Positions 2,973 to 59,000 of a stretch of DNA of 64,000 nt are shown piece by piece. The notes under the pieces were generated by a model that saw only the letters and a list, made by a program, of their open reading frames with translations, did no database searches and was not told the DNA's origin. The translations under genes and the position numbers were made by a program. Numbering within the stretch: the first letter of the stretch is position 1; each line of letters begins with the position of its first letter. Origin of the DNA: Clavelina lepadiformis (Eukaryota; Chordata; Ascidiacea; Aplousobranchia; Clavelinidae). Where the stretch lies: NCBI RefSeq assembly GCF_947623445.1, contig NC_135240.1:9858001-9922000 (forward strand), read 5' to 3'.

Positions 2973-3118
2973 TTATATCACCAGTCTGCATCAATTTTGC
3001 TGAGTTACAAGTAACAGGTGTTTTTGGTTAATTTGGCGGCGCTGATTCCAAAAATAACATCAGATTTTTTCTATCACGTCAATTTTTTTCACAAAACGCA
3101 ATTCAGTATTTTGACAGT
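2973..3118 (+). repeat. Left terminal inverted repeat of transposon copy 1
   Basis: Outer tip at 2973-2990 and inner block at 3031-3118 match the reverse complement of 5277-5442. The block GCGCTGATTCCAAAAATAAC (3039-3058) and the stretch TTTTTTCTATCACGTCAA just after it are the best conserved parts and recur in the diverged copy 2. Confidence 0.75.
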
Positions 3119-3235
3119 AAGAGCAAATAAATAGCAGTATTCACAATATGTGAATATGCCTCGGCGTAAAAAGCAAAAAAAATTAATAACAGCACATATC
3201 TGCATAAAGGTCACAACACTGAAATTAATATTATT

Positions 3236-4941
3236 TTATGGAAGAAGCTTTCTCTTTTTTGACTTTCGAGAATGTTTATATGTTTCCTCATCTCTCATAA
3301 GACACCAACAATAATCGGCCATCATACTAACATTCCACCGACCTTGATATCTTTTTTCCATGATTTTGATATCTTGGTGGAAACGTTCACCTTGTTCTTC
3401 ACTGGAAGATCCTAAATTTTCTGGAAAGTAGTCCAAATGACTATGCAGAAAGTGCACTTTTACACTCATGTTGCAGCCAAGTTTTTGAAACGAGCAAAGC
3501 AAGCGGTTGACAAGTTCTTTGTAATCAGGTGATTTGGTATTACTGTACCCAGAAAGTTGCTCACAACCTGGCTAAAAGCCACCCAACCTTCTTTTTCATC
3601 TTGATTCATGGTTTTGATAAATTTCTTGTCTTTCATTAGCTGTTTTATTTTTGGCCCATCAAATATTCCTGCTTTCAACTTTTCATTGCTCAAGGCAGGA
3701 AATTTTTGGCAAATATACCCAAAACATGCCCCATGTTTATCCAGGCTTTTCACATATTGCTTCATTAGCCCCAGCTTAATGTGAAGAGGTGGTAGTAATA
3801 CTTTGCTTGGGTCTACTAATGCTTGGTTAAGAATTTTTTTTCCTCCAGGAGTAAATTCTTTTCTCTCAGGCCATTGGTCTTGTTCCCAATGTTCCGTTTT
3901 AGCTCTACTATCCCATAGACATAAAAAGCATGGATACTTAGTGTAGCCACCTTGTCGGCGAAGTAGCATACCCAAAACTTTCAAGTCACCACATATTAGC
4001 CAGTTGTGCTCAAAATATTTGCATTTAGTTATTAAGATTTTCATATTTTCATACGTTTCTTTGAGATGTACTGAATGACCAATTGGTACAGAGGCATACT
4101 TGTTTCCATTGTGCAACAGTACACACTTTAAACTAGCCTTGGAGCTATCTATGAATAGACGCCATTCCTTTGGATTGTACACACAACCCATTGCATGTAA
4201 GAGGCCACCTACGTCATGACAAAACACAAAGGCATCTTCCATGCTGAAGTACGGAACCAAACCTTCCTCTCTTCGTCTGTAGAATGAATATGTGGTTTCA
4301 GGAGCTAGTAGATTGTTGTGATGTAGCCTGGATCCTAAAAGCTCTGCAGAAGCTTTTGGCAAATCCAAATCACGCACTAAGTCATTTAAAAAACCTTGCT
4401 TGATTAATATCGGAAGCTTCTCTTGGTCTGAAGATGAGGAATAGTGATCAGTCTTAATACAACTGTCATCTGATGTGCAGCTATCTGTCTCACTTAATGA
4501 TTGAGTTAAAGACGTAAATTTAGGTACAGGGATGCTGTCAGAATGAGGCACAGGTCTCAGGGCTGATGGAATATTAGTATAGCTGATTTTGGATTTATTT
4601 TTAGAGCTAAATCCAGCAGTATTTACAATGCAGAAATAACAGTCGTTGACATGGTTTGCTGGCTCTCTCCATATCATTGGAATGCCAAAGCTCAAACTCT
4701 TTCGTTTGCTCTTGGTCCATTGTCTCAGATTTTCGACACATGCCCTACACACCTTGTGAGGTGCCCAGGACTTGTCTTGATCAATTAGTTTGATACCGAA
4801 GTATGGTAAGTAAGCCTTTTTCACAAAATCTGTGATGTTTTGTCTTTGCTTTGGAGCAGTAAAGCATCCACAAATATAGCAGAAAACATCTGGGTGTCGC
4901 TTGCACCTTATTCGTCCAGCAGAAGTACTAGCCATTGGCAA
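3236..4941 (-). pseudogene. Transposase-like protein of transposon copy 1
   Basis: Reading leftwards from 4941, a 491-residue frame starts MPMASTSAGRIRCKRHPDVF. It has a Cys-rich N-terminus: C-x2-C near residue 21, H-x-x-C-x2-C near 62-68 and C-x2-C near 100, like a small zinc-binding module. A serine-rich linker follows, then a core with WRLFIDSSK (about residue 262), ICGDLK (about 318) and YPCFLCLWDSR just after. The C-terminal part, with FLHSHLDYFPENLG and EEQGERFHQDI, continues in an 88-residue frame at 3236-3502 that overlaps the first in another phase, so this copy has at least one frameshift near 3500-3550. The order Asp, Asp, CxxC, Glu resembles an RNase H-fold DDE transposase with a zinc insertion, but the catalytic assignment is my inference. 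A multi-copy host gene of unknown role is the alternative. Confidence 0.6.
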
Positions 4942-5276
4942 CAGGTTGTATAAATACAGGTTTGCAGAATACTTTAAAACTTATCTAAAAATATAAAATA
5001 AAGATTCACCTATATATGTAAGCTACTTCACATAATTAGGCATGAGCTATTTACAGTAGAAATTCGCCTATATCGACACCTCAAGGGGATGAAGAATAAG
5101 TCAATACGCTCTGCTTAAGCAATAACGTCCAGTTTTAAAACACTCTTTCTTGTAGAGCTAGTTTTGACTTTTAGTAGGTCAAGCATCTTGCAACGCGTCA
5201 TCTTGCATCTCTACTGTACTTCTACAAAATTGATGTAGGCTTGTGTAAAGCTCTATGCTATATACCGGTAGTAATT

Positions 5277-5442
5277 ATTTCCTTTTACCATCAAAATATT
5301 GAATTGCATTTTTTGAAAAACATTGATGTGATAGAAAAAATTTGAGGTTATTTTTGGAATCAACGCCCCAAAAATAACCAGAATAAGTCCTCTTTTTGTA
5401 AAAAGCATAAAAAAAATTTTTTTTTGTAGACCAGTGACATAA
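5277..5442 (-). repeat. Right terminal inverted repeat of transposon copy 1
   Basis: Reverse complement of the left repeat. The best block is GGTTATTTTTGGAATCAACG at 5346-5365; the outer tip is 5425-5442. The two ends differ mostly by single substitutions, so the copy is not young but still alignable along its whole repeat. Confidence 0.75.
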
Positions 5443-25687: not shown

Positions 25688-28600
25688 CTAATCTGATCTG
25701 AGGTTTTTATCAAATTCCTGCGCTAGATCTCGTGCTAGCTGAGTAAGACCAACACTCTGCATGTTTGTGATAATAGCCACAGCAATCCCTTTCACTGCAC
25801 ACTGTTTTTCATTTGAATCCTTATTAACTGAAGTTTGTTGAACATCTGAGTCTGAGTGCAGGGCCAACTTGCAAAGTGAAACTTCGATTTCATTTTCTCT
25901 GTCTGACGTTGATCCTTGGACAGGAATATGGGAGTTTGTATCTGGAAGCAGGAAGAGTATGCTGGATGCTCCAATTGCGCCTCCAGTATGACAAACTTCC
26001 AACTGCCACTTGGGGCAACATCCAAACTGTTCCTTTAGTAAAATAATAAACAGTTATTTTTATGAACTAAGAACACCAAGGCCAAAAATGACACTGATAG
26101 GCACTGAATCCTTCTGCCATAAAAGTGATGTCAGACTTAGACAAAAGATGTGAAAGTGTGAACCCAGTTTTGTAAGTTTATCTCAATGCAATGTATTCTC
26201 TTTACCCCAGATGACGTAATGATTTTATGACCTTGCTTCGAACAATCTTACGTAACAAGTTTTATTACTTTTGAAGAAGCGTTAGAGAAATTAACCAAGA
26301 GAAAAAAAGCACCTGTTTAAACGAGCTTGATGTTTCTATGACCTTGTACGTACTGACAACTTTTGATGCCGTTTATGATTTATGAAACAATAATCTATCT
26401 TGGACATAGCAATTAATGCACAACTTATAAAAGAGATAATAAACACATTTAATTAATCCCCATTGGCTAAACAGCAAAGTACATTGTATTCACGCTTTTA
26501 TTACACCACTTCCTGGGTGCAATTTACATTTGTTGTAGTTAGTCATTAGTTTCTTTATTATCTGCCAACATGTATATATCAAACCGTTTTCCACCTCAAA
26601 AAGTACGAGTTGTCGAGGTCAAGAAAAGGACTAGTCAAGTGTTATAGAGGACATCATATAACCTGATTGTTGTATGCTGAATGTAATCTTTCTAGATGTC
26701 TGTTGAGAATTAATTAAGGCGTTGTCAAGCATGAGTATAACTTATTTGTTAACCTGTTAATATAATCTTTGTCTGTAGTAATAATAATAATACGTGATAA
26801 TTGTGTGTTTTAAGTTGGCTGATGCCTAGAGTTTTCTAGGCTGAATTCGCTCCCGTCTGAGAATAGGTAGACAGATGCGAGTCACAGCTATAGAGGAAGT
26901 ATAGTCATCTCAATACAAAATTAAAATAAACTTGTAAGAAACAGACATATCAGCACTATCGAAAGTGCATTACAAGCTTACCATTACTGGATAAACTTCC
27001 CATCCAAGTCCATAGCTTGCATTTTCATTTAGTTTACTATTTCTTTCTCGTTTACGGTGAACAACTTGATGCCACATTTTGTGAACCTTCACAATTTATT
27101 TTACAAAGTTTACTTTTAGTAGAAAAGCTAATGTTAGCACAGTTTGTGTTTCAGAGACCATTGCAAACTCACAGTTTCAGCTTTCAAAATCCCTGGTGTG
27201 CGGTTTTGTGTCTTTTCCTTATTTTCTTCATTTTCATTATTGTTAGATACATCTGCTTTATACTGTCAAGGCAAAAGTGAGTTAAATTTGTTTGGATTGT
27301 GCTGTACCATTCTGTCATACATGAGCTATAGTGTAATATATTGCCAAGGTGTTTTAACAGGTTCCTACCCATGTAAATCAAGCAGATTTTTGTTCATTTA
27401 CGATAATACATAATGCTCAAGGAGTCTTTGCATACCTGATAGCTGTACATCATGGCATTCCCAAATTTCATAAGGTCGCCAACTGTAGAAAGAAAACCAC
27501 CCCCAGCCCATTTGTACGAGTTGTTCACATACGGAACATTTTCTAATTTTCCGTTCTTTCTTATGTAATACCTTCCAAATAATAGGATGATATGGTTATG
27601 ACCGGAGACAACTTCCCCACTCTGATTAGATGCAAATGAATCGCAGCATTTAGGTCCAAAATATTACCGAATTATACCTTGACCGATTATAGATCAACTT
27701 GTTGTGAACATCAGCATAAGTCTCATTCATTCCAAGACGACGGAAGTTATCTTGCATTAAGGAGAGGAAGTCTCTTCCAGATACTTCTTCTAAGATGGCA
27801 CTAATTAAAGTCCACCCATGGGTGGTATACAAAAACTCTTCTCCTGCATTTTAAACAGATAAGGCAGTTCTGTAAATTTATTGCAGTTAAAAACACTTGG
27901 GGGCGTAATGAAAGAATATATTGTTTTATGTTTAAAAAGAAATATTATAACTTTAACCTGGTTTATATAACAAAGGATCATCCTTAAATAATGCCAAGGC
28001 CTCTGTCACACTGCTGTATTGCTTTGTGATGTAATATTCCGACAATTCAGATTCAATCTTTGGGGGTTTGGGTTTGTCTAAAGTTTTAGAATAATGTCGG
28101 ATTCCACTTAAATGCAACAGCAAGTGCCTCAAAGTAATTGTCACCTGAAACAACATAATCAACCCTATGATGAACAGCAACTTTACAAGTTTGTTAAAGG
28201 ATCGTTTTCTAACCTTTTCACCATTGTAGCTTTTCTCTGGGAAACTTTGCGCATACTCTTGAATATTTTTGTCCAAATCTAATTTGCCCTCTTCCATTAA
28301 CCTTGCAGCAGCCATAGCAGTGAAAGATTTGCTTATACTTGCTACTCTCATCACAGTGGAAGGTGTGCAAGGTACTTTATTTTCCACATCAGCATATCCA
28401 AAACCTGTTTTCGAAAACATGCATCATACTGTTCTGCACTACTATTTAAATTTAAAAGGAGATAGTGGTGAGTTAATAAGGATCTGGCAATACAAACATT
28501 TGAAGTTTACCAAACTGATACAAACTAAAAACTTCCTTATATGAGATTACCTTGTTTCCACACAGTTTTACCATCAACACTCACAGCCACAACCATGCCA

Positions 28601-53017: not shown

Positions 53018-56000
53018 ATGTCTGGCGCGAAAACGATGCAAACGTCGGTGACTTTCACTCTTCCAATTTTGTGCCAAATATGCCTAGGAAAGGTAGTTTT
53101 TATATAAGAATTTTATGTGAAATGCGCTAATTTATAAAATAAAAAGTATCATTACTATGCTTTAAACGCGAGTTTCAACATATCTTGAAATCGATTGTAT
53201 CGTAAAAGATAGAGTCAATATTATGTCAAAGATAAAGTTTATATCAGTGTTGTAATTACTCAAGTTACATAATTTTATGATTTGACTTGACTCGAGTCAA
53301 AGTTCAAAATGAGTCGAGTCATGTTATGACGGTAGTGATGGCAAGATATACAACTTACTGTAGCAAAAACATATATTTCTGAATAATTTCAACTCTGTAA
53401 AAAATATTAACCAGATTAATTTTTGACAGCCATAACGTTGTCGTTATACTAACCAATTCAATGCAACACATGTTATGACCTTAGAATTGTTTTAAAGTTA
53501 AATACATTGACTGGACATGACTCGATAGTCAAAGTTTAAACTCATTTGACTTGAGTTACAACTTACATTGATTCGAGTTACAATTCAGAATGACTCGAGT
53601 CAGAAAAGAATGCCTTTATTACAAACCTGGTCTTTATTATTATACCAGTTATCATATGTTTTTGTATCAAGCAAGAAGGTAGGCATTCATATTTAACACA
53701 CCTTAAAAAATCTCAGCAATGTGGCACTGTATTAGCATTATAATAATAATTAATGCTTGTTATCAATGTTTGTCAAAAGAGTGGTGTGGTGGTCTAAGTC
53801 AAGTTATATAGGTGCTGTTCACCAAATTGTTGGTGCAAAGCTGAAGTTCATTACACTGGACAACAATTTAGAACTTATTTTTTATTCCTCGCTCATTTCA
53901 AGTTTACCTAGACTAATTTTGCAATGCTGAATCCAAATCTGGTCTTAGATTTTTTCTAACACGTCACGTTTTTGAGATATGATATATGCTCACGACAACC
54001 CATAACTGTGATTTTGGCTAATTTTGGCTGAGCGGAACAAAACATTACATGTAATCAACCCAGTAATTTCTATTGAAAATAACAGCATTATCATACTGCA
54101 CAATTTAACACAACCCAGGATAATTAAATCAGACAAAAATAACATTATATTCCCTCAAAAGTGCTTTATACACTTGCTCTTTCGAGTATGTTCAGTGTCA
54201 GTTTCACGCTGAAGAAACCAGCAGTAGTCCCCCATCATGTTTGGGTTAAATCGACCTCTATACCGCGATTCCATCACAGAGATGTCTTGGTGAAATCTTT
54301 CCCCATGCTCGTCGCTCACATCACCCAGGTTTGGCGGGAAAAATTCCAAGTGTGAATGAAGAAAATGCAGTTTAACCGACATTCTGCAGCCCATTTCGCG
54401 GTATGATTCCAGCAAATTGTCCACTAGTTCCGAGTAATTTTCTGCCCTGTACTTCCCAAGAAAATTTTGTACAATCTGTACAAATGCATTCCAGGCTTTT
54501 AATTCAATTGAATTAAGCTTGAATGGAAATACTGGGTCACGGATCAAATCACGTATTTGGGGGCCAACAAATATTCCAGCTCTCAGTTTAGCATCACTTA
54601 GTATTGCACCAAATTTTTCTTTTATATGCAGGAATCCATCTCCATTGAAATCCATTGCCTTCACAAATTGTTTGATCAGGCCCAGTTTAATGTGAAGTGG
54701 TGGCAAGTACACTTTGCTCGGATCAATTAGGGGTTGGCACTTAACATTATATCTTCCAACAATGTAGTCCGTTCTCATTGGCCATTCAGTTGTGTCATAG
54801 TGGTTTGCATCGTCTCGACTGTCCCACAAACAGAGAAAGCACATATGCTTGGTGTAACCCAACTGCAATCCGAGCAAAAGTGACACAACTTTAAGGTCTC
54901 CACATATGTACCAGTTATAAGCCCGGTAGTTAATGACCCGTAGGATGGTTTCCATAGACTCGTACGTCTCCTTCAAATCGACAGCATCAGCAATAGGGAC
55001 AGAAGGCTTTTCATTCCCATTGTGCAGTAGGACAGCTTTCAAACTAGCTTTGCTAGAATCAATGAACAGTCTCCACTCAGTGCTAATGTGTTGGTGGCCA
55101 AGCTCATACATGAGTGAATCAACATCAGTGCAAAAACACACAGAGTCTTCGATTTTACCCCCCCCCCCCCTCTATAGTCATGGCCAAGAACATTCAAGAA
55201 TGCATTAATTGTGAAAAGATAGAACATTGCATTTACAAAATAATGTCAATATTAATCTTACATAACATGCATTGTGACATAATATGACCAACAATTCGCT
55301 GGGAAAGAAAATTGCACAATACCTTGTACTGTAGAACCTTATAATATAGTGCCAATCAATGCAAAATCCGAATTTCGTGAATTTTCATATCTTGAAAACC
55401 TGACGTGATAGACCAATTCTGATTTCAGATTTGGAATCAGCGTCCCAAAGTTAGTCTAGGCAGTTTATTTTCATTTGAGGAATAATTTTGCTGTTGTCCA
55501 GTGATAGACAGTGTGCACTGAAGTTTCCATTCTTAGTTAATTTATCATAAATTGGCGCCCAAACGACCTAATTTACCTTGTTTGTTTATTATAAACTGGC
55601 ATGAAAATGAAAAAGTTTGGCGTTCAGATTGACAAGTTTCGTGCGTTCAGGTGTCACCGTTTCCCTTATTGACCAAGCCCACTGAACAGAAGCAAACATT
55701 ACTGCATTGACCAAGGACATATCACTGGTAGCATCACTGGGTATCAAACATGGGTTGAATTAAATTGAGCCCTGCACTCTAATCATTCGGCTGCTGAGCC
55801 AACAACAAGACTGGTTATCACTTTCAAATTTGGGCCGGGCAAAATTATGTAAAATTAAAAATACAAGCAGAAATTTATCCATGTGAACTTGTTTGTACTT
55901 CACAGATTTTAGACAATTAATTATAAATGGTACTTGATTAAAAAAAACATTTACTTTATTATCACCGTGCTTTGTTTTGCAGGTAAAAGAACCAGTTACA

Positions 56001-59000
56001 TGCTCCAACCAACATGCTTTCTGCAGCTCTTGTATGAATGTCTGGCTAGATAAAAACAGCCAATGCCCTTCTTGTAGGGTTGAAATTACTCTACAGAGTC
56101 CTGTCAAGAAAATAATTGGTCAGTCGCTGGTTATTTCAACCGCAAGTAGTGTTGCTTTGTTGAGTATTTTAAAAATGCTGTATACTAAATTTGTGACAAG
56201 TACAGACTTTTTAGAGTTCGTATAAAAATCAAAAACTGTAACCCTTCAAATCCGGGTTGTGCAGATTTTGGTGTATTCCAGACTGGTGGCTATGTGTGAT
56301 AATATGTTGTGTGGTTATGGACGATTTTCACAGGTGGTACACTGCAAAATGATGGCAATACAGCTAATCAGCGTTCAATGTCAAGACAACTAAGAAGGGC
56401 TCGTTATGAATTAGTCCTGAAAGAATATGAGGTTTTTGCTTTTAAGATAGCTTATATCACCCTGTAGGTTTTATGTAATTGATTACTATTAAACTATATG
56501 TTTCCTCATACTTATTCAATCTACTGTCAATTAATACAGGATGAGATATTGCAGTTGGAAAATAATGTTGAGAAACTTTCAAAAGAGAACCACAATTTGA
56601 AGGAACAACTTAAGAAAAAGGCTTCACATGCAGGTGGAGAGACATGTCCATCTGTATTGACAAGTCATGAAAATATAAGTATTGTTGCTCCCTGTGAAGA
56701 AGATGTCAAAGATTTGTCAAGGAAAACGAAAGAAGTTTCAAAAAACTACAAAAAGGCAAAAAAAGAAATAGCCGATTTGAAAGAGGTACATTTTTTGCAA
56801 GTTTTGGTTGCAGTGCACATCACATTATTGTTCCAGTGTTTTTTCAAACTATGTGAGAATCCTAAAATTACAATTTCATAATTGCCAGGTAAATGAAATG
56901 CTTTTAAAGCGCAATGATGACCTTAGACGAGAGATCCTAATAGTTCGTGAAGAAGTAACCACCAGATCACCAATGAAGTACGATATAGTAATTTCGTTAT
57001 TGATATATACTTATCACGTTGATAGTGGATACAGCATCAGGTAGACAACTGGAATTGTCTTGTATGATGTAAGGGATAAGAAACTTTAATCTCTGAATAG
57101 TGAATTGGGTAGTTTAGTTTTGTGTAGCAATATATGTTGGCTTCTGTTTGTTTTAGGTTTGGACGCCTCACAGTGGCCACGTTGGAAGCAAGACTAGAAG
57201 CATCAGAAAAGCAAGTAGTGCAACTTCAGAAAGCGCTACAACGAAATGATGCGTACAGTGAACAACTTGAAACTGAAATAAAAACCTTAAAAGCAATGAA
57301 AATGAAAAAATACAAAGAAAATGCAGGCAACCAGTTTATGGTACAAACTGTCAATCCCATTTTGTCAGCAATGTTGCATGAGCCTAAAAAGGACATAGTT
57401 GCTGAATCATTTGAAGCGTCTATGCATTACTCAACACCTTCAGAAAAATTAAATTCACTTTCAGCAATTACACAATGCGAGTCTTTAGTTGCATCAAACG
57501 ATGTTCTTTTGGATACCGAAGATGACACATCAAAAACATCTTCAAATATAGAAATGGGTAGCATTATTGAGGAAACATTTAAAGAATCTCATTCTACTCC
57601 ACTTGTACAGCCAGTTCCATCGAGTTTTGCAAAGTCTTCGTTTAGCCGAAAGCTGCAGTTTGATGATACAACTGAAACACATAACTCTGAAATTTTTCAT
57701 CGTGAGACATTCTAATATGAAATATTTTAATCCATTATTCTTGCTTGTCTAATATGCATTTTGTTTCAAATTATTCTAACCTTACATGTATTCCAGGTAA
57801 TTTCTTTTCTATTGAAGATGCATGTGATTTTGGTACTGACATGTCAATGGAGTTGACAGATCTACAGTTAACCTATGATGCTATTAGGAGATCAACATCC
57901 GAAAGTACTTCAAATACAGGAAACAGATCTGTGCAGGGCTGTAACAGTCAGCAAAATAAAGACATGGGTGTACTTTCTCCAGGTGAACAAACCAAATTCA
58001 TACAGTGTATCCATAAACATTACTGGTCACAGCAAGTCAATGTTTTTTGTGTATACAGCGAAATGAAACTGAGCTTTCGCCAGATTTAAAGGTCAAATAG
58101 AAATTAAATAGTTTTATCTGGTGCTGATTTGGAAAAAAAATTAAAAGATAAAATTTAATTTTAACGTTAACAAAACACCCATTTGTACTCCCATAACATA
58201 CAGCAATGAAAACAACAATTGATGCTGGAGGCTCGCGCATTACAATGTCCCAACTGAGTGCTGAAGAACATGATTTGTTTTGTCGGCCCAGTTCAGCACC
58301 AAGCCGGACTTTTTTATTAAGCGGATCTCGTTTCTCAGCCTTGCAACCTCTTGATCCTCCCAACAGATCTAACAGCAGTGACTTCCAGCCAGTGAAATGG
58401 TCATTTTTTTCTCAACTATTTTGTTGAGTTGGTTCAGTCATCGTGATAGTTTAGTGCGAAGTTGTGTAAATTCCATTTGAGTTGAATTCCACTTTTTTAA
58501 CATAACAAAACTTTTATCTTAATTCTTAGCATATCTCCAATGCACATGCTAAGCCAGCCACCAGAAGTCAAGGATGAGAAAAGGTATGCCAAAGTTTGTC
58601 TGCTTTTTATAAGTGTGCTGTGTATCGTAATCAATGTGGCTATGTGCTAGCAACATTTCCTGTTTATAGATCACAAAGTCCACTATTGCGATTGGTGTCA
58701 CCTCATGATGTTGTTGATGCAAGATGGAGACAAATGGAAAGTATGATAAACATAATATTTTTGTTGATTATGTGGTGTTAGTCAGAATACTTTTATACTT
58801 TTCTGCTCACAGCATTCTGTTTTAACCTATTTTGCAGCTATTGTTCCCAAACCTGATGAAGAGCTACGAAGCAAGGAAATTTTATCCAGGGTCAATATTC
58901 TTAAAAAGAAATCTAGCAATACCAAGGTAGACTTGAGTGAGAAAGTACCCATAATATTTTTTGCTTAACAGACATTGTCTCCAGGAAACATTTGTAATTT

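Follow-up and report, generated by a model that had tools for sequence, protein, structure and literature searches.

A 64,000-nucleotide stretch of DNA from the ascidian Clavelina lepadiformis (contig NC_135240.1, positions 9,858,001 to 9,922,000; hereafter the window) carries a transposon copy, element 1, and we hold with high confidence that its family is an animal-type Chapaev3 DNA transposon, the window copy being old and probably inactive. Chapaev3 is a known animal transposon group that is fold-related to the RAG1 immune recombinase. An earlier note on this DNA had judged the element unassignable to a named superfamily, but its termini, target site duplication (TSD), insertion preference, protein motifs and predicted fold together make it very probably a Chapaev3 element, within the Chapaev superfamily of the CMC group.

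The same note had placed four peptides between inverted repeats, and all four are found there. FIDSSK, GDLK and CFLCLWDSR lie within a minus-strand open reading frame (ORF) of 491 residues, and GERFHQDI lies within an 88-residue ORF that overlaps it in another frame (Table 1). The inverted arms (3022-3133 and 5272-5383) are 112 nt long and 85% complementary (blastn E ~2e-31). No other inverted pair of at least 45 nt within 6 kb turns up in the window when the seed is 11 bases; this seed overlooks the 76-nt arms of a second element, element 2, which a 9-base seed recovers. The terminal 12-mer at 2979, CACCAGTCTGCA, begins with CAC and has 3 mismatches to the family motif CACTGGNCNACA, and that at 5436 on the minus strand, CACTGGTCTACA, has none. 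The terminal 170 bp match a close copy, L031, with 93% and 96% identity at the two ends. Thus, an element does exist where the note had drawn one (2973 to 5442), but each end lies 6 bases further in.

Two points had been missed, namely element 2 and a frame change in the element 1 gene, which an alignment break and tblastn place between ~3547 and 3535. We do not read this frame split as an intron, because the ORF is uninterrupted in 21 of 50 fetched loci. L031 and L032, both 1.6-kb derivatives with exact TSDs, are ~95% identical to element 1 over 1.2 kb, and its closest relative is L002 (98% over 1395 bp). Incidentally, short repeats in both orientations adjoin L002 (167-338 and 1312-1502) and also match the flank of L048.

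Copies were collected from the genome that holds the window (209 Mb, 95 contigs). A first homology look produced 1686 candidates, of which 87 were scored, with 89 match rows. A second query, taken from a distant family, produced 1873, of which 77 were scored, with 88 rows. The 50 loci fetched include some near-identical members of one family. The transposase ORF is uninterrupted, with 561-572 residues from a shared Met, in 21 of them by our own count (L003-L006, L008, L010-L012, L014-L017, L019, L020, L026, L027, L029, L037-L040), and the elements with such a gene are ~2.4-3.0 kb long. Within groups of copies, identity is 96-99.8% across 1.9-3.0 kb, and it mostly stops at the same points, the flanks being different. 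Scans of viral and genome contigs gave no relatives, a weak negative because they used a few short peptide patterns.

When the 50 loci were scanned for the 12-base terminal motif CACTGGNCNACA with at most 2 mismatches, two ends were found in 39. The other 11 lack at least one recognisable end, as would be expected where copies have decayed or been shortened; the note had taken homologues in other genomes without flanking inverted repeats as a sign against its reading. An exact 3-bp duplication flanks 27 of the 39 two-ended copies, reading TTA or TAA in 26 and TAT in one. By eye, A precedes and T follows the TSD in 24 of these 27, the exceptions being L030, L032 and L041. The pattern ATWACACTGGYCWACA has 485 matches in the genome, compared with 1 for the reversed control. 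Among 100 matches listed, 23 facing end pairs lie within 4 kb, all 23 with complementary TWA, although three of them (C1:1.24-1.31 Mb) are equal in length and may be mutual duplicates.

Empty sites were sought genome-wide for two copies, L026 and L010. L026 lies in a repeat, and a 180-bp query made by joining its flanks around a single TTA returned 27 rows. The whole query (bases 1-180) is spanned by 17 rows, of which 14 measure exactly 180 bp and have 95-98% identity. The occupied locus is represented by two rows that meet at query bases 88-90, the TTA. For L010, 32 of 41 rows span the junction (own count) at 75-81% identity, a weaker result because the rows start merely ~8-20 bases before the junction. 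The earlier note had proposed that the protein is the transposase of a cut-and-paste element, and had advised a search for same-ended copies and empty sites. Same ends, TSDs, empty sites and multiple copies bear this out.

The transposase has the residues expected of a DDE enzyme. At every residue of the DDE triad and of the C(2)C, LH and H(4)H motifs, no more than one aligned row deviates (at least 14 of 15, or 15 of 16, rows conserved). In the model of copy L004, the predicted RNase H fold has two Asp and one Glu in the expected places (Asp265, Asp319 and Glu517, the predicted active site), and CxxC lies between the second Asp and Glu. The suggested Asp-Asp-(CxxC)-Glu order and the suggested structure check thus came out as predicted. 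The contrary outcome, a fold without clustered acidic residues, was not seen in this model, within which distances were not measured. In the VIA-align fold comparison, Transib and RAG1 rank first, 352-368 residues aligning at ~4 Å, with identities of 14% and 9% in the rows of HzTransib (6pqx) and RAG1 (5zdz). In a BFVD fold search, 0 of 571 matches reached E ≤0.001, and the best 50 of the 571, many of them unnamed, include no named bracovirus entry.

The N-terminal zinc domain (window 4522-4941, minus strand; L004 1498-1917) has a predicted fold that resembles insect ZAD domains in the L004 model. RAG1_imp_bd matches it weakly, in 2 of 14 rows and with E 0.01 at best, and its single match among PDB sequences at E ≤10 is a RAG1 chain, 21wb_A, also weak (E 4.8). 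The zf-AD profile gave 12 weak matches in the whole genome, none above cut-off, and none in 14 control genomes. No link of ZAD to transposases, Chapaev or RAG1 was seen among the literature entries listed (12 of 257 and 10 of 193 papers).

In published descriptions, Chapaev elements have CAC/GTG termini; for Chapaev3, the TSD is TWA with A on its left and T on its right, and the transposase motifs are C(2)C, LH and H(4)H (PMC4079192). Chapaev3 is a sublineage of Chapaev (PMC12730594) and contains the Chapa zinc domain (PMC4411706), an N-terminal domain in common with RAG1. It occurs in a fly (PMC3630058), and CMC-Chapaev-3 occurs in Hydra (PMC12220107). The present family resembles Chapaev3, with its Merrow, Garfield and Conan families, in all these end, target and motif traits and in its DDE triad. 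It is also alike in size, at ~2.4-3.0 kb and 561-572 residues, compared with 2289 bp and 556 residues for a silkworm element, and the uninterrupted ORF of 21 of the 50 loci matches the single-exon transposase of most families (PMC4079192). On the other hand, it resides in another host genome, and its ZAD-like N-terminal predicted fold is unmentioned in the excerpted Chapaev3 descriptions.

Several points weigh against the Chapaev3 assignment. The comparison with named Chapaev3 elements is one of published traits. Pfam, the profile search that the note had recommended for DDE superfamilies, yields no transposase match, the nearest being ZSWIM1-3_RNaseH-like in L004 (E 0.16). Chapaev3 is not known to have a Pfam model. 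The structure model has a predicted template modelling score (pTM) of just 0.56. When left flanks are paired with right flanks at random (1000 shuffles), exact TSDs number 12.9 of 39 on average and 20 at most, a high baseline since almost every flank reads TTA or TAA. Exact TSDs are absent from 12 of the 39 two-ended copies (L001, L004, L008, L014, L016, L019, L033, L039, L043, L044, L045, L046). L001 is the window copy, for which the end scan chose a wrong second end because the true end has 3 mismatches, as probably happened in a few others; five (L004, L014, L016, L019, L043) have, by eye, an extra or altered base beside an end. Even at its true ends, element 1 has no recognisable TSD (left flank TAT, right flank ACA). 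Finally, some uninterrupted copies carry substitutions, Glu at the first Asp in L029, His at the second Asp in L010 and Tyr at the second His in L003, so that an uninterrupted ORF need not mean an active enzyme.

A new, unnamed superfamily in the wider CMC/Transib clade, resembling Chapaev3 in ends and TSD through common ancestry, would fit the lack of a Pfam or PDB sequence match to the catalytic part and the absence of the peptide strings GERFHQ, CFLCLWDS, PPLHIKLG and FIDSSK from the literature searched. We consider it improbable, as the testable Chapaev3 traits are all found (CAC..GTG ends, a TWA duplication flanked by A and T, the C(2)C/LH/H(4)H motifs, a ~560-residue, mostly single-exon transposase), except for the Chapa domain with its weak matches. 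Resemblance to other groups is partial. The predicted RNase H fold with helical insertion is shared with Transib and RAG1, but identity to them is low and the TSD is 3 bp here, whereas that of Transib is 5 bp. EnSpm/CACTA elements share CAC.. termini, a short TSD and C(2)C with H(3-4)H, two motifs in common among EnSpm, Mirage, Chapaev and Transib (PMC12730594); unlike them, the present element is small and single-ORF, with a TWA-restricted TSD and no CACTA match in Pfam.

The 3-bp TSD would also suit a PIF/Harbinger element, a group with an IS5-type DDE domain, for which 3 bp is canonical (PMC12730594). However, the C(2)C and H(4)H motifs lie between the second Asp and Glu, no Harbinger-type Pfam match appears at E ≤10, and the CAC..GTG ends and the best fold, Transib/RAG1, lead us to set this identity aside as very improbable. 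No more probable is a host gene that was domesticated, or a multi-gene family of the host, with unrelated repeats on either side by chance. One long ORF in many copies would be compatible with it, but ends, TSDs and empty sites accompany the gene, copies 96-99.8% identical end at the same points in differing flanks, and the empty sites refute it for the family.

With ends, TWA duplication, empty sites, motifs, Transib/RAG1-like fold and many near-identical copies given by sequence or prediction, Chapaev3 transposition may be pictured as follows. The ~565-residue transposase would bind the element ends, a CACTGG-type terminal inverted repeat (TIR) plus a conserved subterminal block, possibly through its N-terminal zinc domain, which, judging from its sequence, could serve end binding or dimerisation. 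The DDE active site would excise the element and insert it at A-TWA-T, duplicating TWA. By analogy with Transib/RAG relatives, hairpins may form on flanking DNA during excision, and the C(2)C/H(4)H residues may bind zinc.

Both window copies are probably old, because element 1 is frame-split, lacks a recognisable TSD and has shortened relatives (L031, L032), and because element 2 lacks the N-terminal part and has flanks TTA and ATA. From their reading frames, neither would make a working transposase. Activity, if any, probably resides in other families of the genome, where very similar uninterrupted copies suggest more recent movement.

Element 2 is diverged and shortened. Both its termini are CACTGGACAACA, with 0 mismatches to CACTGGNCNACA, its 76-nt arms are 79% complementary and related in sequence to those of element 1, and its ORF shares 54% identity with element 1 across 227 residues (E 2e-97). 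A RING-finger exon (55980-56120, plus strand; zf-RING_2 E 6.9e-7) adjoins it. A third element, locus L049 (C1:9855073-9857817), with a TTA TSD and a broken frame, ends ~190 bases before the window start. A gene for a B-family DNA polymerase may start at an ATG ~370 bp beyond the element 1 end (5805 onward, plus strand); the plus-strand ORF 7611-7982 matches REV3_N below the threshold (E 5.6e-6). A beta-lactamase-family ORF (27953-28420, minus strand; PF00144, E 4e-22) is presumably a LACTB-like animal gene.

Table 1 Features of the two Chapaev3-type elements in the window
Feature	Position	Strand	Basis
Chapaev3-type element 1, 2458 bp	2979..5436	-	transposase on minus strand; terminal 12-mers and alignment to close copy L031
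TIR region, 3′ end of element 1 relative to gene	2979..3133	+	inverted arms, blastn, alignment to L031
TIR region, 5′ end of element 1 relative to gene	5272..5436	-	inverted arms, blastn, alignment to L031
Transposase gene, first part (491-residue ORF): N-terminal zinc domain, both catalytic Asp, C(2)C, LH	3466..4941	-	ORF, homology to other copies
Transposase gene, last part, other frame (88-residue ORF): H(4)H and catalytic Glu (GERFHQDI)	3236..3502	-	ORF, tblastn
Element 2, second, diverged, shortened element, 1650 bp	53854..55503	-	both termini, 76-nt arms, arms related to element 1
328-residue ORF, transposase catalytic part of element 2, N-terminal domain missing	54155..55141	-	homology to element 1

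An 'uncharacterised' animal protein thus gains a transposase role with defined ends and target, and annotations treating it as a host gene can therefore be corrected. Some uninterrupted copies in this genome are ~99% identical and are useful for the study of a relative of the RAG1 recombinase, and the ZAD-like N-terminus offers a testable clue to where an insect regulator domain came from.
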